64,000 bases of DNA from Oscillospiraceae bacterium (lineage in GTDB: Bacteria; Bacillota; Clostridia; Oscillospirales; Acutalibacteraceae), in the NCBI GenBank assembly GCA_015065965.1, contig SVPH01000003.1, forward strand, positions 1 to 64,000, written 5' to 3'. Shown here piece by piece: positions 41,976 to 54,983 of this stretch (position 1 is its first letter; the number at the start of each line of letters is the position of its first letter). Below the pieces are notes generated by a model. The model was not told the DNA's origin. It saw nothing but the letters and a program-made list of their open reading frames with translations, and ran no database searches. A program made the translations under genes and the position numbers.

Positions 41976-42011
41976 CAGCCGGCAGAATGCTTTCTGCCGG
42001 CTGAAAATTTT
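41976..42011. terminator. Bidirectional terminator
   Basis: CAGCCGGCAGAA and its perfect 12-bp complement enclose a TGCT loop, with AT-rich flanks on both sides. It separates the SDR gene from the reverse-strand gene ending at 42010. Confidence 0.85.
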
Positions 42012-44109
42012 ATTCTTCAATAAGTCCGTAGTATCTGCCAAACCAGTAGGGGAGAAGATAAACGCTCGGGCTGTTTGCACAGGTTGGTCTGCCGTCATCA
42101 ACTCGGAAAGGATTGGTGTCGTAATTATGGATTACTCTTGCATCAATATCAAGTGCTTCCTTAAGATGAGGCTTGCAGCCCCAACGCTCTTGCTCAGTAT
42201 CGTAAACAAGATCTTTTCTTGATGAGTTAATCATAGGTCTTTGAACAAAATCAAGAGGATATTCACGCAGTGATTTAACAGCATGGTCAAGGTCGCATGC
42301 ATCGTCAGAGAATGCGCCGTAAATGAGGCTGTACCAGGCGCAGTGTTCTGTTCTCTCGTATTCCCAATGATGTCTTGTACCCATAAGCAGGTATTTTCTG
42401 ATTGCAGGGTCTGTTTCCATACGAAGAATTGTTACCGTGCAAAGGAAACCGAGATTATCGTCAATATGGTTTGTGTGTCCGTCAGGCTTTTTATGTTGAG
42501 CAGCATTAAGAAGGTAATGTTCATCAACAGCAAGGCGAAGGAATTCTTTTCTGTATTTTTCATCACCGGATACATGGTATGCAACGCTGAGGAATGTAAG
42601 AATTTCAAGGGAATTGATGCATTTTTCCCAAAGCCACATATTGTTTCTGTTGAGTTGATCGGGGTCCCAGATAGCCCATGTGGTGGGTAATCCGTCAACA
42701 TCACAAAGCCTGTAATTATGTTCAAGAATATGGTCAACTATGTCGCAAAGGATCTCTCTGATGGTTGCTTTTTCTTCTTCGTCAGCGCAGAAATCATAAT
42801 AAAGTGAAAATCCGAAAAAGTGTCCGGTCATTTCATCGCTTGATGTTTCGCCGAGCCATTCACAACTGCCGTCAGGTGCTTCGTGCCATTCCTGACCGTC
42901 AGCCTTTACAACTGTGCCGTAGCCGGGTTCGCCTTCAAAACGCACTGCTCTTGCAGTAAAACCTTTAACACCGGAAATTTTTGTGAGGAAACACATTGCC
43001 TTCATTGAGCGTCTTGCGGCTTCAAGATACTTTTTATCTTTTGTAACTGCGTATGCATATGCAAGCGAGCCGATATATGTCTGAGTCCAGAGACCGTCAT
43101 TATCGCTTATGCTGGGTTTACCGGTACTGATGTCATAATCTTTGATTTGATGAAGACCTGTAACATATCCGAGGGTGCGCAGATATTTATCTTCGGTAAG
43201 GTTGAAGCAGAATTCGGCCTTTTCTTCAAGCGTCATTTCAACTTCTGTTATTTTTGAAACACCGGAGTTTGTTGCAGTCCATATTGAGTTGCCGACTGCA
43301 ATTGCATCGTTAATATCTTTTTCGCATGACCAACGGGTTGCGGGCAAATATTTCTTTGTGCCGTTGTTGAGAATAATAAGACCCGCTTCTGATGAGAGAA
43401 TAACTCTTCCGTCTTTTGCAAAACTTATGTTATAAATTTCTTCTTCGGGAAGAGCGTTGATTTCTTTATGGCCAAACCAATTGCACTTACAGTCAAAAAT
43501 GTAACAACCTTTGTCTGTGCCGAGCCAGAGGAATCCGAGATTTTCGTCAAATTTAATACAGTTGATTTTGAAAACAGGCATGTTTGAATGCTCGGGGAAA
43601 ATTGTCATCCAATGCTTTCTTTTGCCGTTGACAATGCTGAGTGTATCATCGTTTGAAGCAGTGATTTTCTGATTGTTGATAGCGATTTTTCTTGCTTCTG
43701 CTTCGTTGTGGAAGAATTTTATGAACTGACCGTTTTCAAGAATATAGAGAGCATTTTCTGCCAAAAGATAAGTATTGTCAATTCCGCTCATATCACAGAT
43801 ATCTGAATCAAAGTTCTGAAGTTCAGCAATCTTTCCGTCAGCAACGGTGTAAACCGTTCTGTCGGTTGCAAAATAAACTGTGCCGTTTTTAGCGGTAAAT
43901 ATGTTTCTTACCGCGCCGCAAGCGAATGATCCGAATGAGCCGTCTGTCTTTGTGTAATTAAGACCGCTTTCGGTACCGATGTAGACAACTTCGTTTTTAT
44001 CGCTTCCGAGGCAAAGCGCTTTGTCAGCAAGCAATCCGTTGCTTGCACCGTAAAATTCGCATGTGCGCTGAGGATATTTGTTGCTTTTGTAAAATCCTTT
44101 TCTTTCCAT
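42010..44109 (-). CDS. Propeller plus alpha/alpha-toroid protein, putative glycan-active enzyme
   Basis: The 699-residue cytosolic protein has two parts. Residues 1-288 contain repeated two-component-regulator-type propeller blades (VVYIGTESGLNYTKTDG, GFLWLGTDKGCYIFD, SIWTATNSGVSKI). Residues 290-699 are helical hairpins like the (alpha/alpha)6 toroids of glycosidases and lyases. Conserved polar motifs are SDNDG (335-339), TSSDEMTGHF (422-431), GLPTTWAIW (473-481) and YWFGRYYG at the end, all shared with the protein at 62071. I do not recognise a named family. It is the last gene of an operon after birA and a lipoprotein, with AAAGGAG as ribosome binding site. Confidence 0.7.
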   Translation of the reverse strand: MERKGFYKSNKYPQRTCEFYGASNGLLADKALCLGSDKNEVVYIGTESGLNYTKTDGSFGSFACGAVRNIFTAKNGTVYFATDRTVYTVADGKIAELQNFDSDICDMSGIDNTYLLAENALYILENGQFIKFFHNEAEARKIAINNQKITASNDDTLSIVNGKRKHWMTIFPEHSNMPVFKINCIKFDENLGFLWLGTDKGCYIFDCKCNWFGHKEINALPEEEIYNISFAKDGRVILSSEAGLIILNNGTKKYLPATRWSCEKDINDAIAVGNSIWTATNSGVSKITEVEMTLEEKAEFCFNLTEDKYLRTLGYVTGLHQIKDYDISTGKPSISDNDGLWTQTYIGSLAYAYAVTKDKKYLEAARRSMKAMCFLTKISGVKGFTARAVRFEGEPGYGTVVKADGQEWHEAPDGSCEWLGETSSDEMTGHFFGFSLYYDFCADEEEKATIREILCDIVDHILEHNYRLCDVDGLPTTWAIWDPDQLNRNNMWLWEKCINSLEILTFLSVAYHVSGDEKYRKEFLRLAVDEHYLLNAAQHKKPDGHTNHIDDNLGFLCTVTILRMETDPAIRKYLLMGTRHHWEYERTEHCAWYSLIYGAFSDDACDLDHAVKSLREYPLDFVQRPMINSSRKDLVYDTEQERWGCKPHLKEALDIDARVIHNYDTNPFRVDDGRPTCANSPSVYLLPYWFGRYYGLIEE

Positions 44110-45510: not shown

Positions 45511-45539
45511 TTGACAAGTCATTTTATAAATAGTAAAAT
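45511..45539 (+). promoter_or_regulatory. Promoter of the glycyl radical enzyme operon
   Basis: TTGACA and TAAAAT are separated by 17 bp. It precedes the activase gene by about 30 bp and is identical in its hexamers to those at 26166 and 34924. Confidence 0.82.
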
Positions 45540-45572
45540 TTAACATAAATATAAGTGCTCGGTGGTGATGTT

Positions 45573-46277
45573 TTGAAAATACTTCAAAAGGGTTTCAATT
45601 ATTCTCAGGACGGACCGGGTAACCGCCTTGTTTACCATTTTCAAGGCTGTAATTTTGCCTGCAAGTGGTGCTCTAATGCAGACAGTATTCCGCTTGAAAA
45701 TATTAACTCAAAGGAATATTCCGTTGATGATATATTTGATGAAATCATGCGCAGCAGAATGATGTTTTTTGACGGCGGAGGTGTAACCTTTACAGGAGGA
45801 GAAGTCTGTGTTCAGTCTGCAGAACTTATTGTGCTGTTGAAACTGTTAAAAGCCAACGGAATTCACACTGCTGTTGAAACAAACGGCTCAATTCTTGCAC
45901 TCAGAGATATAGCGGAGTATGTTGATTACCTTATTGTTGATTTCAAGCACCATGATGATGAACAGCATAAGAAATGGGTCGGAAGTTCAAATAAAATCGT
46001 TAGAAAAAATATTGAATATTTTTTAAATACAGGCAGGCAGATACATATAAGAATCCCGGTTATTCACGGTGTTAATGATGAACCGCAAGGTTTTGCTGAT
46101 TATTTTAAAGAATTTGATACTTCAAATGCTGTTTTTGAGTTTCTTGCTTATCATGAATACGGCAAGGATAAATGGAACGGAAAGTACGAAATTGAAAACG
46201 GTTTTGTATCGGCAGAAACTATAAAAGATTTTACTGAATTTTTTAATGAATACGGCATGAAAACCGTAGTTACATAA
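45573..46277 (+). CDS. Glycyl radical enzyme activating enzyme (radical SAM)
   Basis: The 234-residue enzyme installs the glycyl radical on its partner enzyme, encoded directly downstream. Motifs are FQGCNFACKWC (C-x3-C-x2-C cluster site), GGVTFTGGEVCVQ and a late RIPVIHGVND. It is compact and lacks the extra two-cluster ferredoxin domain that many activases of C-x-E-class enzymes have after the radical SAM motif; in that it looks like pyruvate formate-lyase activase. The start is taken as TTG 45573 behind GGTGGTG; a GTG at 45555 lacks a ribosome binding site. Confidence 0.9.
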   Translation: MKILQKGFNYSQDGPGNRLVYHFQGCNFACKWCSNADSIPLENINSKEYSVDDIFDEIMRSRMMFFDGGGVTFTGGEVCVQSAELIVLLKLLKANGIHTAVETNGSILALRDIAEYVDYLIVDFKHHDDEQHKKWVGSSNKIVRKNIEYFLNTGRQIHIRIPVIHGVNDEPQGFADYFKEFDTSNAVFEFLAYHEYGKDKWNGKYEIENGFVSAETIKDFTEFFNEYGMKTVVT

Positions 46278-46289
46278 GGAGAAAATGTG

Positions 46290-48617
46290 ATGAATTGTAT
46301 TCTTGGCAGCAGAAAAATAACAGAAATGGCAAAGGCACTTTTTGCCGAAAAGAGAGCAGGTAACCGCCTTGACGGTTGGTTCATTGCAAAAGAGTACGAA
46401 CTTCGTCTGGCAAAAGAATTTGACGGCGAGAACGAGGAAGTCAAAAAGGCTCTTATTCTCAGAGAAATTGTTAAAACAATTCCGATTTATCTGAGCGATT
46501 ATCAGATTTTTGCAGGCACTCAGGATGATGCTTTTGCAAGAAGTTATGCGCTTATAAATCCCGCTTTCAAGGTTGAGGAATTCAGCGGATATTGTGATCC
46601 TGCTGCCGTTTTCTCGGATATTGAACCGAATGATGATATTACTGCTGACAGAATTGAAAAGGCAAGAGCCGAATTTGCCAAAACGGAATATGCCGTTAAA
46701 CTCGGCGAAGTATACGGTAAAAATGAATGTTATACTAAGGAAGTTATTTTTTTCTTTGAGCAGGTAACGGGTCATCTTATTCCTGACATGCGCTATGCGA
46801 TAAAGTACGGCGTCAGAGCAATGATTGATAAAACAGCGGGCAAAAATGGCAACGGTTATAAGGCTTTTGCCATTGCTCTTGAAAGCGCAATCATTCTTGC
46901 TAACCGCTATGCAGACCTCGCTGCAGAGCAGGCAAAAACTGCATCAAATGAAAGAAAAGTCCAACTTGAACTTATGGAGAAAACTTTGCGAAAAGTTCCT
47001 GAAAACGGTGCGGAAAATCTTTGCGAAGCAATACAGGCATTTATCATTATGTGGCAGATTATGTGCCTTGAGCAGACTCCGAATCCGTTTGCTTTTTCTG
47101 TAGGTAATGCTGACAGGATTTTTGAACCTTACAGAAACGGACTTGATCGTGATACAACTGCAGCATTGTTCAAACATTTTCTTGTATTTTTCAATGTTGC
47201 GGACAGAAGTTGGGCGATATCGCAGAATATAATCGTCAGCGGCCGTGATGCTTGCGGTAACGATCTTACAAACGAAACTACATATGCTCTCATGGATGCA
47301 TATTATGATATGAACTTGCCTCAGCCTATACTTTCCGTTAAACTTCATAAAAATACTCCTGCTAAACTTTATGAAGAAATGGGCAGATTTCTTTTCAGCC
47401 CCGGTGTTCTTACACCGTCATTCTTTAATGATGATTCTCTTTATGATGTTCTTTCCTCAAAGGGTGTTGACGGAGAAGACCTTGCGGATATTTCAATTGC
47501 AGGCTGTCAGGAACCTCTTATTATGGGTAAAGATAACGGCAATACAACCAACAGTTGGCTTAACCTTCCCAAGATTCTTGAAATGACTCTTACGGGCGGC
47601 GTTTCAACAATAACAGGTGAGAAACTTGTTGATGTTGAACCTTGTAAACTTGAAAATATAAGAGAGGCATTTTGGAAAAATGTTGAAAAGTTTGTTGCTG
47701 CCATGGGTGAAGCGGCAAACGGTGCTTCGGCTGCGCTGTCAACCCAGCGTGTACCTTTCCTTTCATGTCTTATGGGCGGTCTTGAAAACGGCATAGATGC
47801 AAGAGATATTAATGCACAGGGTACAAAATATAACGGCAGCGGTTGTCTTATTCACGGTGTGTCCGTTATTGCGGATAGTTTTTCCGCAATAGATAAATTG
47901 CTTACTGAAAGACCGCAGGATGCAGATAAACTTGTTGATGCACTCAAAGCGGACTTCAAGGGTTATGAAGATTTACGAGATTTCTTGCTCTCAGCAGATA
48001 AGTTCGGCAACAACATTGAAAAGGTTGATAAAGAAGCAGGTGAGATTGCATCAAAAGTTGCGGATATTGTTTCATCAACCAAAAACTATCTCGGCAATTC
48101 GTTCCGACCCGATTTCAGTTCACCGTCAACTCATCTTCTGTATGGTTACTGGGTTGGTGCAACGCCTGACGGCAGAAAATCAAGAGATATGCTCGGTTAC
48201 GGTGTTGACCCTCTTTACGGCAGCGCAGAGAACGGCCTTGGCTTCCGTATGCTTTCAAATATGCAAATGCCGTTTGAAAAGATGAATGGCGGCTATGCAT
48301 CTCATCTTGGCATTGACCCGAAATATTTCAGTTCTGAAACATATGAAGGTAAAGGCATTGAATTCAGGGATAAAGTTATTAATCCTCTTTTCTTCAATCC
48401 TCTTAAAGAAGGTGTTTCACCTTTCTATCTTTATGTAAATGTTACAACAGCCGAAATACTCAGAAAAGTTCTTGCAAATCCCAAGAAGTATGCTCCGAGC
48501 GGTGTTTATATAATGAGAATCCACGGAACATTTGTTAACTTCCTTGATCTTTCTCCTGCAATTCAGCAGGATATTATTACAAGGCTTGATCCCAAATCGG
48601 CAGCAATAGGTGATTAA
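46290..48617 (+). CDS. Glycyl radical enzyme of unknown substrate (C-x-E class)
   Basis: The 775-residue protein is a glycyl radical enzyme. The active-site segment is IAGCQEP (C406 and E408), the C-x-E arrangement of the eliminases (dehydratases and lyases), not the paired cysteines of pyruvate formate-lyase. The C-terminal radical loop is MRIHGTFVNFLDLSP (G746), a departure from the usual RVSGY. So the likely chemistry is radical elimination of water or another group from a vicinal diol or similar compound. The start is ATG 46290, with AAGGAG 8 nt upstream. The neighbours (activase, sugar kinase, mannose-6-phosphate isomerase) point to a sugar or polyol. Confidence 0.9.
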   Translation: MNCILGSRKITEMAKALFAEKRAGNRLDGWFIAKEYELRLAKEFDGENEEVKKALILREIVKTIPIYLSDYQIFAGTQDDAFARSYALINPAFKVEEFSGYCDPAAVFSDIEPNDDITADRIEKARAEFAKTEYAVKLGEVYGKNECYTKEVIFFFEQVTGHLIPDMRYAIKYGVRAMIDKTAGKNGNGYKAFAIALESAIILANRYADLAAEQAKTASNERKVQLELMEKTLRKVPENGAENLCEAIQAFIIMWQIMCLEQTPNPFAFSVGNADRIFEPYRNGLDRDTTAALFKHFLVFFNVADRSWAISQNIIVSGRDACGNDLTNETTYALMDAYYDMNLPQPILSVKLHKNTPAKLYEEMGRFLFSPGVLTPSFFNDDSLYDVLSSKGVDGEDLADISIAGCQEPLIMGKDNGNTTNSWLNLPKILEMTLTGGVSTITGEKLVDVEPCKLENIREAFWKNVEKFVAAMGEAANGASAALSTQRVPFLSCLMGGLENGIDARDINAQGTKYNGSGCLIHGVSVIADSFSAIDKLLTERPQDADKLVDALKADFKGYEDLRDFLLSADKFGNNIEKVDKEAGEIASKVADIVSSTKNYLGNSFRPDFSSPSTHLLYGYWVGATPDGRKSRDMLGYGVDPLYGSAENGLGFRMLSNMQMPFEKMNGGYASHLGIDPKYFSSETYEGKGIEFRDKVINPLFFNPLKEGVSPFYLYVNVTTAEILRKVLANPKKYAPSGVYIMRIHGTFVNFLDLSPAIQQDIITRLDPKSAAIGD

Positions 48618-49910
48618 ATGAAATTAATCGGAATTGATATAGGCACTACAAGCATCTGCGGCGTATCAGTTGATGCATCAAGCGGTGAAATTGTCAAATC
48701 GCTCACAAAGCAAAACAAATCGTTTATTAAATCTGATAAACCTTATGAACGTATTCAAAATCCCGATATAATAATGGATAGTGTATACGGAATAGTTTCT
48801 GAACTTGGTTTGGATGATGTTGCTGCCATAGGTTTCTCAGGTCAGATGCACGGCATAGTCTATACCGATGCAGCAGGCAAAGCGGTAAGCCCTCTCTATA
48901 CATGGCAGGATGAGCGCGCTTCGATTGAATATGAGCAAGGCAAATCATATGCTAACCACCTCGGCTGCTATGCGGGTTATGGACTTGCAACCGATTTTTA
49001 TAATGATAAAAACGGCATTGTTCCGGATAACGCTGTCAGTTTGTGCACAATAGCGGATTATGCCGTAATGCAACTCTGCGGCATGCAAAAACCACTTGTT
49101 CATATTACAAATGCGGCAAGCCTCGGTTGTTTTGATACGGATAGAAATTGTTTTACAATAAGCAATCCAAGAATTCCGGATGTAACAACAGCGTTTGTCT
49201 CTGCCGGTAAATATAAGGATATTCCCGTCTGCGTTGCCTTGGGAGATAATCAGGCAAGTTTTATCGGCTCTGTTTCCGATACGGACGATGTTCTGATTAA
49301 TGTCGGTACAGGTTCGCAGATTTCATGGCTTACCGAAACACACGTTTCTTGTGACGGTGTTGAAAACAGACCGTTTGACGGCAAACATTTTCTTGCGGCA
49401 GGTTGCGCCCTTTGCGGCGGAAGAGCATTTGCTATGCTTGAAAAGTTCTTCAGAGAAATTGCTGCTCTCGCAGGCTGTGAAGCAGATTCTTTGTATACGC
49501 AGATTGATGATTTGCTCAAAAATAAAACAGAAACAACGCTTGTTACTGATTGCCGTTTTTGCGGCACAAGAAATGATCCTTCCGTCAGAGGCTCAATTTC
49601 AAATATTTCCGAATCAAATTTCACTCCGGCGGATATGGCTTTGTCTGTTCTTAACGGCATGGTAAGTGAACTTTATGATATGTTTAAAAACGGCGGTAAA
49701 ACAGCGAAAAGGCTTGTATGCTCAGGCAATGGCACAAGAAAAAACGCTCCGCTCCGTAGAATAGCATCTGAAATGTTCGGCTGTGAAATAAAAATTCCTC
49801 TTTATGCTGAGGAAGCATCATACGGTGCGGCACTTGCTGCATCGGTTGCATGCGGAATAAACGGTAATATCAGCGAAGCATGCAGACTGATTAAATACAG
49901 GGAGAACTGA
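48618..49910 (+). CDS. FGGY carbohydrate kinase, sedoheptulokinase-like
   Basis: The 430-residue kinase phosphorylates a sugar or polyol with ATP. The N-terminal phosphate motif is IGIDIGTTSICGVSVD, and the substrate region FSGQMHGIVY followed by SPLYTWQDERA resembles sedoheptulokinases. Further motifs are VALGDNQASFIGS, LINVGTGSQISWL and VCSGNGTRKN. Its ATG follows the glycyl radical enzyme stop codon directly, so the two are translated together. The substrate is unproven. Confidence 0.88.
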   Translation: MKLIGIDIGTTSICGVSVDASSGEIVKSLTKQNKSFIKSDKPYERIQNPDIIMDSVYGIVSELGLDDVAAIGFSGQMHGIVYTDAAGKAVSPLYTWQDERASIEYEQGKSYANHLGCYAGYGLATDFYNDKNGIVPDNAVSLCTIADYAVMQLCGMQKPLVHITNAASLGCFDTDRNCFTISNPRIPDVTTAFVSAGKYKDIPVCVALGDNQASFIGSVSDTDDVLINVGTGSQISWLTETHVSCDGVENRPFDGKHFLAAGCALCGGRAFAMLEKFFREIAALAGCEADSLYTQIDDLLKNKTETTLVTDCRFCGTRNDPSVRGSISNISESNFTPADMALSVLNGMVSELYDMFKNGGKTAKRLVCSGNGTRKNAPLRRIASEMFGCEIKIPLYAEEASYGAALAASVACGINGNISEACRLIKYREN

Positions 49911-49912
49911 TT

Positions 49913-50932
49913 ATGTTTTACAATAAACCTATTTTCTTTGAGAAAAACAGGGTTTTCAGAGTTTATACAGGCGGCAAACTTTTTGCCGATTTCTTCGGGG
50001 ATGAGTCAACAGACGGATATTATCCTGAAGAATGGGTTGCATCAAGCGTAAGAGCGCTTAATGAGGGAAGCACCGATGAATACGAAGGCGTTTCAAAAAT
50101 TAAGGGTACTGATTTATACCTTAACGATGCAATTGAAAAATACAAATCTGAAATTCTCGGTTCAAGAGATGATATCGGAATTCTCACAAAAATTCTTGAC
50201 AGTGCAATCAGGCTTCCCGTTCAGGCGCATCCTGATAAAACGTTTTCAGAAAAATATTTTTCTTCAAAATACGGTAAAGAAGAAAGTTGGATAATTCTTG
50301 CAACGCGTCCCGGAGCAAAGATTTTTTATGGATTTAAAGACGGCGTAACGCTTGAGGATTTTTCAAAAGCAATTGATGAGAGCGAAAACGGCTCAAACGC
50401 AATGGAGAATCTGCTTTCTTCAATTGATGTTAAAGCGGGAGATGTTATTTATATTCCTGCTAAAATGGTTCATGCCATCGGCAGCGGATGCCTTTTGCTT
50501 GAAGTGCAGGAACCTACCGATTTTACAATACAGCCTGAGCGTTGGTGCGGTGAATATAAACTTTCGGACAGAGAGATGTATCTTGGCCTTGACCGCGAAA
50601 AAGCGCTTGAGTGTTTTGATATTTCAAAACGCTATCCTGCACCGCTTACGCCTAAGATTATTACCGATGAAAACGGCATTAAATATGAGTCAGTTATTGA
50701 TGAAAACATAACAACCAGTTTTTCTGTCAGAGCAATAACTCTCAGCGGAGGTTCATTTGTGCTCAGCAGGGGAGCAGCGGTTTATGTTGTTACCGATGGC
50801 AGCGGCTCAATTATCGGTGAAAACTACTGTGCTGAAATCAAAAAAGGCGATTATTTCCTTATGCCGGAAAGCGCAAAGGATAAATTTTCAATATCAGGCA
50901 ATAATATCAAAGTAACTGAATGTTTTGCCTAA
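49913..50932 (+). CDS. Class I mannose-6-phosphate isomerase
   Basis: The 339-residue zinc enzyme interconverts mannose-6-phosphate and fructose-6-phosphate. It has the zinc motif [35 protein letters not shown] and [10 protein letters not shown]. The form is the short Firmicutes ManA type. It is 2 bp behind the sugar kinase and in the same operon, so either it processes the product of the pathway or it acts on a related ketose phosphate. Confidence 0.93.
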
Positions 50933-50943
50933 AGGAGGATTCT

Positions 50944-52125
50944 ATGAACACAAACGCAATGTTTAAAATCGGTTACGGACTTTATGTTCTTACCGCCAAA
51001 GAAAACGGTTTTGATAACGGTTGTATCATAAACACCGTTACTCAGGTAACCGCAAACCCCAACAGAATTACTGTTGCCGTAAACAAGGCAAATAAGACGC
51101 ATGATATGATTCTCTCAACGGGAGAATTCAATGTCAGCATTCTTACAACATCGGCTTCTTTTGATATTTTCAAGGCTTTCGGTTTCAAAAGCGGCAAGGA
51201 TACCGATAAGTTTGACGGGTATACTTCGGTAAAAAGAAGCGAAAACGGTATATATTATATTACCGATTCAACAAACGCTTATATTTCCGCAAAAGTTATC
51301 AACGCAACCGATCTCGGTACTCACACTCTTTTCCTCGCTGATGTAACCGATTGTGAAATACTTTCGGAAATTCCGAGTGTAACTTATGATTATTATCATA
51401 AACATATTAAACCGAAGCCCGAAGTGAAAAAGACCGCAAAGGTTTATTACCGCTGCAAGATTTGCGGCTATATCTATGAGGGTGATGAACTTCCTGCAGA
51501 TTTTATCTGCCCGCTTTGTAAACATCCTGCTTCTGATTTTGAAAGAGTTGAAGCAGATGAGGATAATAATTCAGATAAAGGAGAAAATGACATGAATCTT
51601 AAAGGCACAAAAACAGAAAAAAATCTTATGGCAGCATTTTCAGGCGAATCAGAGGCAAGAAATAAGTATACTTATTTTGCTTCAGTTGCTAAAAAAGAAG
51701 GTTTTGAGCAGATTTCTGCTATCTTCCTTGAAACCGCAAACAACGAAAAAGAGCACGCAAAAATGTGGTTCAAGGCTCTCGGCGCTCTTGGTGGTACAGC
51801 AGAAAACCTTCTCCACGCAGCAGAAGGTGAAAACTATGAGTGGACAGATATGTATGCTACCTTTGCAAAAGAAGCAGATGAAGAAGGATTTACAGAACTT
51901 GCTGAAAAATTCCGCATGGTTGCAGCAATCGAAAAGACTCATGAAGAGCGTTATCGTGCACTCCTGAGTAATGTTGAAATGCAGAAGGTATTTGAAAAAG
52001 CAGAAATGACAATGTGGGAGTGCCGTAACTGCGGTCATCTTGTAATGGGCAAAAAAGCTCCCGAAGTTTGTCCTGTATGTGCTCATCCTCAGGCATACTT
52101 TGAGGTTAGAAAAGAAAACTATTAA
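50944..52125 (+). CDS. Flavin reductase-rubredoxin-rubrerythrin fusion
   Basis: The 393-residue protein joins three oxidative-stress modules. Residues 1-155 form a flavin reductase-like FMN-binding domain, 168-203 a rubredoxin ([17 protein letters not shown]), and 217-393 a complete rubrerythrin with its diiron helices ([37 protein letters not shown]) and its own terminal rubredoxin (CRNCGHL, CPVCAHP). Together they can pass electrons to reduce peroxide. An internal AAAGGAG stands 8 nt before an in-frame ATG at 51592, exactly at the rubrerythrin start. So a free rubrerythrin may also be made. The main start has AAAGGAGG. Confidence 0.92.
51577..51594 (+). promoter_or_regulatory. Internal ribosome binding site and start for rubrerythrin
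   Basis: AAAGGAG at 51577-51583 and ATG at 51592 are optimally spaced and in frame within the fused gene. The residues encoded across the junction ([14 protein letters not shown]) form a linker. It looks like the relic or still active start of a formerly separate gene. Confidence 0.65.
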
Positions 52126-52138
52126 TAATTATTTTTTT

Positions 52139-52169
52139 GCCGAGAGCAATCATGCTCTCGGCTTTTTTT
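52139..52169 (+). terminator. Terminator of the glycyl radical enzyme/rubrerythrin operon
   Basis: GCCGAGAGCA and its perfect 10-bp complement enclose an ATCA loop and are followed by seven T. Confidence 0.92.
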
Positions 52170-53138: not shown

Positions 53139-53531
53139 ATGGCAAAAAATATTGTGTTCAAAGGATTCAGAGCAACAGAAATTGAATTTGTCAACAAGTG
53201 CGAAAACGGTGCAAAACTTGAGTTTGAGAACAAGTATTCTTATAATGTAAAATACTCTAACAACAATGTTTGTGTTGGCGAAATGGTTGTTGAAGTAAAC
53301 GATAAATCTAATAAAGACAAATTCCATATCAAAGCGGTTGTTCAGGGGATGTTTACTTATAATCCCGAGGTTAAAAGAGAAATTCTTCATGTTCAGACAT
53401 TCAAGGAACTTTTCCCATATGCAAGGACAATGATTTCTTCGCTTACGGTGAATGCAGGTATTCCGCCGGTATTTATTCCTAATTTTGATATAGAATCACA
53501 AAGCATTTATAAATTCGGTAAAAACGTTTGA
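53139..53531 (+). CDS. SecB-like protein-export chaperone
   Basis: The 130-residue protein has a beta-rich first part and ends with FPYARTMISSLTVNAGIPPV and FIPNFDIES, which closely match the conserved SecB region (LFPYxRxxISxLTxxxGFPPxxLPPINF). SecB keeps exported proteins unfolded and hands them to SecA. SecB is best known from Proteobacteria, and SecB-like proteins in Firmicutes are less studied. The gene is tightly linked to the membrane cyclophilin. The identification rests on motif recognition. Confidence 0.72.
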   Translation: MAKNIVFKGFRATEIEFVNKCENGAKLEFENKYSYNVKYSNNNVCVGEMVVEVNDKSNKDKFHIKAVVQGMFTYNPEVKREILHVQTFKELFPYARTMISSLTVNAGIPPVFIPNFDIESQSIYKFGKNV

Positions 53532-53549: not shown

Positions 53550-54983
53550 ATGGATATCATGGATTTGGCATCAAAAGGCATAGTGGCAATTACAAAAAAT
53601 TTCGGTAAAAAGGTATGTAAGAACGAAACCGCACCTGAAATTGAGAAGGTTGCGCCCGTTGAAATCAAAGGCAGCGGCTACAGAGCAGGTTTTGCAACTG
53701 ATGAAATTATGCCTGATCTTAACAGCGGTAAAACATACTGGATTGCCGGTCACGGTTCGGGTCACAAAATGGAAGGCGTACTTTCTCCCGTATATATCAG
53801 CGCAGTATGGCTTGACTGCGGCAATGATGAAGGAATGCTCTGGCTTGGCGCGGATATAGTCGGCATGACAAGGGTAGAAGTCAATAAAATTCGCTCAATG
53901 ATTATGGCTTCTGACAAGATAAAGGGTTGCAAGTGTATCAATTTCAGTTGTACTCACAGCCATTCGGGCATTGATACTCTCGGCTATTGGGGCAAACCCA
54001 ACCTTGTCAGCATTCCATCCGACGGTAAAGATCCTGAATATATGGATATGCTCATGAACAAGGCTGTTAAGGTTGCTGAAGAAGCATATGCAAACAGAAA
54101 GAGCGGCAAACTTTACATTGGCGATATCAAAATTGAAAACGGTCTGCAGACACGCAGAGGATTTATTGACAGGCATGAGGTTCTTTCAAGATTCCGTTTT
54201 GTTCCCGATGACGGTGCAAAGGAAACATGGATTCTCAATTTCGGCGGTCACCCCAATTCTCTCGGTGGCGGCAATCGTATGCTCAGCGGTGAATATCCTT
54301 ATTTTATGCGTGAACAGATTAAGGCTGAAAATGGCGCAGATGTTCTGTTTGGAATTGGTGCAATCGGTGCAATGGATGTTGCCGAACTTGATGAAAAAGA
54401 TAACGTTAACTGTATCAAACTGCAGGCTAAGATGATTGCTGATGCAGCCTTGAAAATTGATAACGATAAGGAACTCACCCCTGATATGAAGATTATGCAG
54501 CAGCCTTTCTATCTTCCTGTCGGTAACTATGTTCTTACTCTGCTTGCAATGCGTCATGTTATGAGTTTTAAGGCATACCCCTGCAATGAGAGCGATATAG
54601 GCATTGCAATGATGACTGAACTTACTTACATGTCAATCGGTGGCAAAAAAGTGCTTCTTCTGCCTGGAGAAAGTTTTGTTTCAACCGTTTACGGCGGATA
54701 TATGTCAGCCGATGTTGCTCCCACGGGCAAAGGCCCCGAAATCAATCCCACTCCGCTTGCTGAGATTGCAGGTGAACCTGATATGATTGCTTTCGGTGTT
54801 TCAAATGATATGACCGGTTATGTTGTTCCTCCCAATGATTTTATTCTCAACCCCACTCAGCCTTACCTCAACGGCGTTAAGGATAAAAACGGTCTTAACC
54901 ATTATCATGAAACAAACTCAATGGGTATCGGCGCTCAGAAAGTTATTGCAGATACTTTTGCCGATATGGTGAGCAGATTCTGA
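53550..54983 (+). CDS. Neutral/alkaline ceramidase-like protein, cytosolic
   Basis: The 477-residue protein resembles neutral ceramidases and related amidases. It has the N-terminal YRAGFATDEIMPD strand, the AGHGSGHKMEGVLSP region, WLGADIVGMTRVEV, the zinc motif SCTHSHSGIDTLG and the GPGESF-like LLLPGESFVSTVYGG. Known ceramidases are secreted and near 650 residues with an immunoglobulin-like C-terminal domain; this one has no signal peptide and no such domain. The true substrate is thus uncertain. It is in one operon with the SecB-like gene (18 bp) and the exporter gene (1-bp overlap). Confidence 0.8.
   Translation: MDIMDLASKGIVAITKNFGKKVCKNETAPEIEKVAPVEIKGSGYRAGFATDEIMPDLNSGKTYWIAGHGSGHKMEGVLSPVYISAVWLDCGNDEGMLWLGADIVGMTRVEVNKIRSMIMASDKIKGCKCINFSCTHSHSGIDTLGYWGKPNLVSIPSDGKDPEYMDMLMNKAVKVAEEAYANRKSGKLYIGDIKIENGLQTRRGFIDRHEVLSRFRFVPDDGAKETWILNFGGHPNSLGGGNRMLSGEYPYFMREQIKAENGADVLFGIGAIGAMDVAELDEKDNVNCIKLQAKMIADAALKIDNDKELTPDMKIMQQPFYLPVGNYVLTLLAMRHVMSFKAYPCNESDIGIAMMTELTYMSIGGKKVLLLPGESFVSTVYGGYMSADVAPTGKGPEINPTPLAEIAGEPDMIAFGVSNDMTGYVVPPNDFILNPTQPYLNGVKDKNGLNHYHETNSMGIGAQKVIADTFADMVSRF

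Follow-up and report, generated by a model that had tools for sequence, protein, structure and literature searches.

A putative new subfamily of glycyl radical enzymes, encoded with a sugar kinase and a phosphomannose-isomerase-like protein in an Oscillospiraceae genome and its relatives

We have analyzed a stretch of 64,000 nucleotides, called the window below, from the genome of an Oscillospiraceae bacterium (contig SVPH01000003.1). A preliminary description of this DNA had proposed an operon for a glycyl radical enzyme (GRE), which might belong to a new radical sugar pathway. A strong promoter and four genes of the + strand do lie where this description had placed them:

45511 to 45539, + strand: predicted sigma-70-type promoter (TTGACA-17-TAAAAT), 11 of 12 consensus positions
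45573 to 46277, + strand: radical-SAM GRE activase, 234 aa, TTG start (PF04055)
46290 to 48617, + strand: GRE, 775–776 aa, with a PFL-like domain
47505 to 47507, + strand: codon of Cys407, presumed thiyl radical, in the motif GCQEP (C-x-E with Glu409), which aligns with GCVE/GCIE in the reference enzymes
48525 to 48527, + strand: codon of Gly747, presumed glycyl radical, in RIHGTF, which aligns with RVAGY/RVSGF
48618 to 49910, + strand: FGGY-family sugar kinase, 430 aa (PF00370 and PF02782 above their cut-offs)
49913 to 50932, + strand: phosphomannose-isomerase (PMI)-like protein, 339 aa (TIGR00218 below cut-off, QxHP motif)

The genes are 0–12 bp apart, as previously described: the gaps are 9–12 bp between activase and GRE, 0 bp between GRE and kinase and 2 bp between kinase and isomerase. 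Alternative GTG starts are found at 45555 for the activase and at 46287 for the GRE. The promoter is the best of 24 promoter-like sites between 45300 and 52300 (shuffles: mean 16.7, standard deviation 4.8).

The GRE is recognized by the Pfam PFL-like model (332.1 bits, cut-off 24.3), and its structural model has the GRE fold. GCQEP is found in all 96 family copies. These do not all correspond to distinct genomes: they include duplicate contigs, for example L054/L033, L085/L150, L119/L156, L112/L045, L115/L046 and L123/L047. The presumed radical glycine lies in an Arg-x-x-Gly loop (R744-I-H-G747), and RIHGT[FY] is present in 95 of the 96 copies; the sole exception is truncated by a contig end. 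Twelve of the 13 reference GREs have RV[AS]G[YF] at this place and all 13 fit RV[ASG]G[YF], a signature of the reference GREs aligned and not of the GRE superfamily. The small residue before the glycine and the aromatic residue after it are not found here: 95 of the 96 family copies have histidine before and threonine after.

Identity to the 13 reference GREs is 21–27%, and within the family it is 62–100% among the best 80 of 244 relatives. In the tree, the 40 family rows form one clade with a support of 100/100, separate from YbiW, PflD, CutC, HypD and the glycerol and propanediol dehydratases. One wrong-frame open reading frame (ORF), cl_L028, was excluded from the tree and from the identity list. 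We have rejected membership in TIGR01774, the PFL2/glycerol dehydratase subfamily (228.8 bits, cut-off 678.2), and in PflD/YbiW (own clade with 100/100 support, 22–25% identity, 165.1 of 1109 bits with PRK09983). The same is true, by NCBIfam equivalog scores, of HypD (173.7/1100), CutC (155.7/1050), HpsG and HpfG (175.3/1000 and 156.7/1000), the indoleacetate and hydroxyphenylacetate decarboxylases (116.5/1100 and 36.9/1150) and PFL1 (59.8/994.2). Thus the enzyme does not fall inside a characterized family; clustering within one whose known substrate is not a sugar would, according to the preliminary description, have refuted the new pathway. The closest structural ties of the model (VIA-align) include 1,2-propanediol and glycerol dehydratases, and its top PDB sequence match is a glycerol dehydratase (195 bits). 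In one related locus (L130), the activase-GRE-kinase-isomerase genes are immediately followed by another GRE of 874 aa, which scores 147 bits against that of the window and has an activase of its own.

The activase scores 76.1 bits with Radical_SAM PF04055 (cut-off 29.5) and 161 of 174.35 bits with TIGR02494. The CX3CX2C motif is present in all 89 activase relatives. The strict CX2CX2CX3C pattern of an extra cluster domain is found in none of these 89, but it also misses YbiY and PflC, so we do not classify the activases as a short form. The kinase has both FGGY domains (FGGY_N 51.2 bits, cut-off 28.8; FGGY_C 47.3 bits, cut-off 27), and the QMHG motif is present in 90 of 90 kinase relatives. 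Xylulokinase XylB is its best curated model, yet this identity was rejected: TIGR01312 gives 97.3 of 380.25 bits. The preliminary description had called it sedoheptulokinase-like. The FGGY assignment stands, while the sedoheptulokinase label rests on a 136-residue sedoheptulokinase fragment, which scores 14.8–47.3 bits against eight of these kinases, much like whole E. coli XylB (20.2–47.6).

The isomerase is below every Pfam cut-off. It had been described as a class I ManA-type enzyme, of which the PMI-like part remains: QxHP, which we take to be the metal-site motif of mannose-6-phosphate isomerase ManA, is found in 56 of 56 relatives, but the curated ManA identity fails with TIGR00218 (85.8 bits, 116.2 needed). 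The genome of the window has a second PMI-like locus (C55:66222-66578, 34% similar). The isomerase in the operon is therefore not the only PMI of the cell, and looks specialized.

When 84,980 species genomes were scanned with a sequence pattern, 244 encoding stretches were found; the relatives analyzed are the best 80, all with at least 62% identity. Most of these come from metagenome genomes and from the gut of goat, sheep, cattle, deer, buffalo and horse, and two are named isolates, Sporanaerobium hydrogeniformans (L088) and Ohessyouella blattaphilus. Sampling of the class gave matches in 14 of 291 genomes and 10 of 181 genera, the window genome included; in a sample of the phylum (398 genomes) the window genome is the only match. 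Plasmid records contain only other kinds of GRE, with at most 28.9% identity among the 40 of 132 matches listed. At the 80 loci, the same-strand partners adjoining the GRE are the activase in 74 cases, the kinase in 76 and the isomerase in 50, with all four genes in 48. When GREs more than 85% alike are combined, the corresponding numbers for the 39 groups are 35, 36, 21 and 20. Several missing partners correspond to contig ends (for example L074, L080, L101 and L129). As controls, we have used 14 loci of other GREs, which extend about 1.5–6 kb on each side of the GRE: 13 have an activase homologue, none has a kinase or isomerase homologue. A chance arrangement can be discarded, since relatives whose GRE is as little as 62% identical have the same gene set in varying surroundings, and neither kinase nor isomerase is found at any control locus.

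The same association is found at the level of whole genomes. A phylogenetic profile was made with 61 genomes, the window genome and 60 relatives, counting as orthologues kinases with at least 39% identity and isomerases with at least 39% identity over most of their length. Kinase orthologues are present in all 25 GRE-bearing genomes and in 3 of the 36 GRE-negative ones; for the isomerase the numbers are 21 of 25 and 0 of 36. Of these 21 isomerases, 13 belong to the operon, one adjoins it in divergent orientation (G007) and seven are found elsewhere. As 37 of the 61 genomes belong to one genus, these co-occurrences cannot be counted as independent. Activase, GRE and kinase form the constant core, and a PMI paralogue is almost always present in the same genome. 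The linkage suggested in the preliminary description is much strengthened: in related genomes, kinase and isomerase either adjoin the GRE or are found along with it. To judge from these sequence data, the GRE forms a new, sharply bounded subfamily which has a sugar kinase and an isomerase dedicated to it.

The operon had been described as a four-gene unit. It probably has five, as two further features follow the isomerase:

50944 to 52125, + strand: flavin reductase - rubredoxin-like - rubrerythrin protein (PF01613, PF02915 and PF21349 above their cut-offs)
52139 to 52162, + strand: intrinsic-terminator-like stem-loop with 10 pairs (7 G-C), a loop of 4 and a T-run tail, TTTTTTTGTT

The fifth gene starts 11 bp past the end of the isomerase, and the strongest terminator-like site is found 3' of it, so the predicted transcription unit would extend from 45511 to 52162. 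An ORF with the length of this gene (392–404 aa) lies 3' of the isomerase in seven close relatives (L053-L058 and L081) and not in other members of the subclade, so we consider the rubrerythrin gene an adopted neighbour. It may perhaps serve for oxygen protection. On the opposite strand, 5' of the operon, there are a biotin-protein ligase, a small lipoprotein-like ORF and a 699-aa protein (42010-44109, - strand). The latter has no Pfam match and a repeat-like N-terminal half, and 12 loci of the same subclade retain it close to the operon. Further downstream, 53139-53531 (+ strand) codes for a SecB-like protein (PF02556, 29 bits, cut-off 26), unexpected for a Clostridia genome, and 53550-54983 (+ strand) for a 477-aa protein without Pfam match, which by eye resembles neutral ceramidases.

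Sugar-type genes recur near the operon in other genomes, in agreement with the sugar link that had been proposed. In L152, a fructose-6-phosphate aldolase (FSA; TIGR00875, 297 bits, cut-off 246) lies between GRE and kinase; next come a beta-lactamase-family protein, the isomerase and a ROK-like regulator. The lack of an aldolase, which had been considered distinctive, is therefore true for the operon of the window but not for this relative. In L159 the kinase is followed by a D-lyxose isomerase family protein (PF07385, 337 bits; 258 of 350 bits with the NCBIfam D-lyxose/D-mannose model, below cut-off), an aldose epimerase and a PfkB kinase. Sugar ABC parts, ROK, a psicose 3-epimerase (374.7 bits, cut-off 300) and GntR are found 5' of the activase in L121. 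Unlinked isomerases are followed by an MFS transporter and a rhamnose isomerase above its cut-off in L178 and L179; in L177, the MFS transporter is accompanied by a GDSL esterase instead. Close copies (65–76%) of the L178 transporter are found only in two other GRE-bearing genomes. L109 and L122 have an EamA-type transporter directly 5' of the activase; in L157 and L158 one lies two genes past the isomerase. In 9 of 96 loci, from six lineages (L063, L067, L073, L075, L076, L077, L082, L151 and L154), the run of genes includes GH38.

No gene of a phosphotransferase system (PTS) is found among the neighbours scanned. Those scanned with Pfam, which are part of all neighbours, contain no microcompartment shell protein, iron alcohol dehydrogenase or aldehyde dehydrogenase, in agreement with the preliminary description, which had noted neither alcohol dehydrogenase nor microcompartment genes. 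The AraC-type and UxaC labels of neighbours were assigned by eye. Three other observations concern this surrounding DNA. In L151 (6334-9732), a GH38 mannosidase-type protein of 1132 aa adjoins the kinase, and its C-terminal part has a Pfam aldo/keto reductase match. A pair formed by the kinase and an arabinofuranosidase gene is found 3' of the GRE in G013, G030, G031 and G033. A helical-looking family of about 216–227 aa, of which the single member scanned gave no Pfam match, lies 3' of the isomerase in L092, L114 and 12 other loci.

The variable extras are aldose-ketose isomerases of 2,3-cis-aldoses, a ketose epimerase, a ketose-phosphate aldolase and glycosidases. Chemistry at the hexose level is suggested by the neighbours found in single lineages (FSA, the mannose/lyxose and rhamnose isomerases, psicose epimerase). 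With a probability of about one half, we read the operon as encoding an anaerobic route dedicated to a sugar-like compound, probably a hexose-level one. In such a route, the activase would place a glycyl radical on Gly747, from which it would move to Cys407. The Cys407 radical would abstract a hydrogen atom at a carbinol carbon, with Glu409 as general base, and an oxygen group would be expelled from the adjacent carbon by dehydration or by opening of a C-O-C ring. The product would be a carbonyl compound at the level of a (deoxy)ketose or aldose. The PMI-like enzyme would interconvert aldose and ketose within the route, and the FGGY kinase would phosphorylate the ketose, which would enter glycolysis either intact or following aldol cleavage.

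We infer that the reaction is an elimination, that the substrate is a sugar and that the GRE precedes isomerase and kinase. Since ketoses are the usual substrates of FGGY kinases, an order with the GRE first and the kinase second is at least as likely as the reverse. The most economical reading would be a hexose-level pathway, where a sugar or deoxysugar is either product or substrate of the GRE and the ketose is trapped by the kinase. More tentatively, there might be an undescribed GRE reaction: radical C-O cleavage in a free sugar, anhydrosugar or glycoside, by means of the altered H-G-T loop and the dedicated activase, with the product carried into glycolysis by the specialized PMI paralogue and the FGGY kinase.

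Several observations weigh against the dedicated sugar route. In 30 of the 80 loci, some of them at a contig end, the GRE has no adjoining isomerase, and 4 of the 25 GRE-bearing genomes yielded no orthologue of it. The kinase occurs without the GRE in three genomes; in G036 (L170) such a kinase has an N-acetylneuraminate lyase (360 bits, cut-off 281) on one side and an arabinofuranosidase gene on the other. Beyond the four genes no neighbour is universal, and the telling ones are each found in one or a few lineages. GH38 loses value as a clue to the substrate because these genomes commonly carry it (46 of 60 relatives). Class II aldolases do not discriminate either (58 of 60 relatives), and FSA (TAL_FSA) is not associated with the GRE: it is found in 12 of 25 GRE-bearing and 15 of 36 GRE-negative genomes, and not in the window's own genome, so a general FSA-dependent route was rejected. 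The structural model has pLDDT values below 50 at 86-102 and 612-650, both family-typical regions. Finally, ordinary eliminase chemistry is an extrapolation, because the RIHGTF loop departs from those of the other GREs aligned.

We rank anhydrohexitols, heptoses and small diols as rival substrates, because FSA is missing from the window genome and unassociated with the GRE, and the YbiW/PflD route has no task for an aldose-ketose isomerase. According to a review (PMC12441222), this E. coli route converts 1,5-anhydroglucitol and 1,5-anhydromannitol 6-phosphates to 1-deoxyfructose 6-phosphate. It is the nearest known chemistry. In a PTS-free version, the GRE would open free 1,5-anhydrohexitols (1,5-anhydroglucitol or -mannitol) to 1-deoxyfructose, which the FGGY kinase would convert to 1-deoxyfructose 6-phosphate for aldol cleavage. 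We consider this rather unlikely: YbiW and PflD are 22–25% identical and form a separate clade, a 1-deoxyketose leaves the aldose-ketose isomerase without a role, and TAL_FSA has the distribution given above. A heptose route is very unlikely. In it, the PMI-like enzyme would isomerize a manno-type heptose to sedoheptulose, to be phosphorylated by the kinase, and the GRE would act on the exocyclic diol of the heptose or on an anhydroheptulose. The resemblance of a kinase region to the sedoheptulokinase fragment, the manno-type isomerases and GH38 which recur near the operon, and the transaldolase-family gene in L152 point in this direction. Nevertheless, the fragment scores no better than XylB, the L152 gene is above the FSA cut-off and far below those of transaldolases, psicose epimerase and PfkB neighbours fit hexoses better, and no heptose-specific gene was seen.

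Dehydration of 1,2-propanediol or a similar small diol from rhamnose or fucose, in deoxy-sugar fermentation, seems highly improbable. The structural ties and the PDB match already mentioned, as well as the rhamnose isomerase beside the unlinked isomerase in two genomes, are consistent with a diol dehydratase. On the other hand, identity is 26–27% and the clade is apart, His163/164 alone is conserved, while the positions aligned with the dehydratase residues His281 and Asp447 are not, and the scanned neighbours include no shell, aldehyde or alcohol dehydrogenase family. Equally improbable is an adjacency due to shared regulation within general sugar fermentation, without a common pathway. The kinase without GRE in 3 of 36 GRE-negative genomes and the inconstant linkage of the isomerase would fit it, but the trio is also found together in genomes where the isomerase is not linked to the other two, and there is a second PMI-like locus.

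GREs carry out hard eliminations in anaerobic guts, with choline, hydroxyproline, sulfonates or diols as substrates. The gene set described here points to the undescribed breakdown of a sugar-like compound in anaerobes, mostly from the herbivore gut. If the sugar link is true, carbohydrate fermentation by the gut communities of ruminants and horses would gain a radical entry, and if free-sugar C-O cleavage takes place, the family would represent a radical branch of sugar catabolism in herbivore gut Clostridia. A bounded family with its own kinase and isomerase reduces the function of the GRE to a small test, for which three soluble enzymes and a set of candidate sugars suffice. With the H-G-T glycyl loop, one could also ask how activase and GRE change partners. 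No paper on this GRE family was found in the open-access literature searched, although it may be described elsewhere; it may be an unnamed cluster of the GRE network papers of 2017.

In comparison with known systems, the enzyme shares with E. coli PflD/YbiW the GRE fold, the C-x-E motif and sugar-type partner genes, and in one relative (L152) FSA adjoins the operon, as in E. coli. It differs in its sequence (22–25% identity, separate clade), in the lack of FSA in the window genome and in having a kinase and a PMI-like isomerase in place of a PTS. The B12-independent glycerol/1,2-propanediol dehydratases (1r8w, 5i2g and the PduB-linked L166) differ in their glycyl loop and pocket residues as well as in overall sequence (26–27% identity), and here no microcompartment, aldehyde or alcohol dehydrogenase family is found among the neighbours scanned. 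Like class I ManA (B. subtilis 1qwr), the isomerase of the operon is a PMI-type cupin with QxHP. Its score is below the cut-off, a second PMI-like locus is present in the genome and its orthologues are confined to GRE-bearing genomes among the 61 profiled (21 of 25 against 0 of 36). The kinase shares both FGGY domains and QMHG with the xylulokinase/sedoheptulokinase-like kinases, but its XylB score is below the cut-off, and it travels with the GRE.

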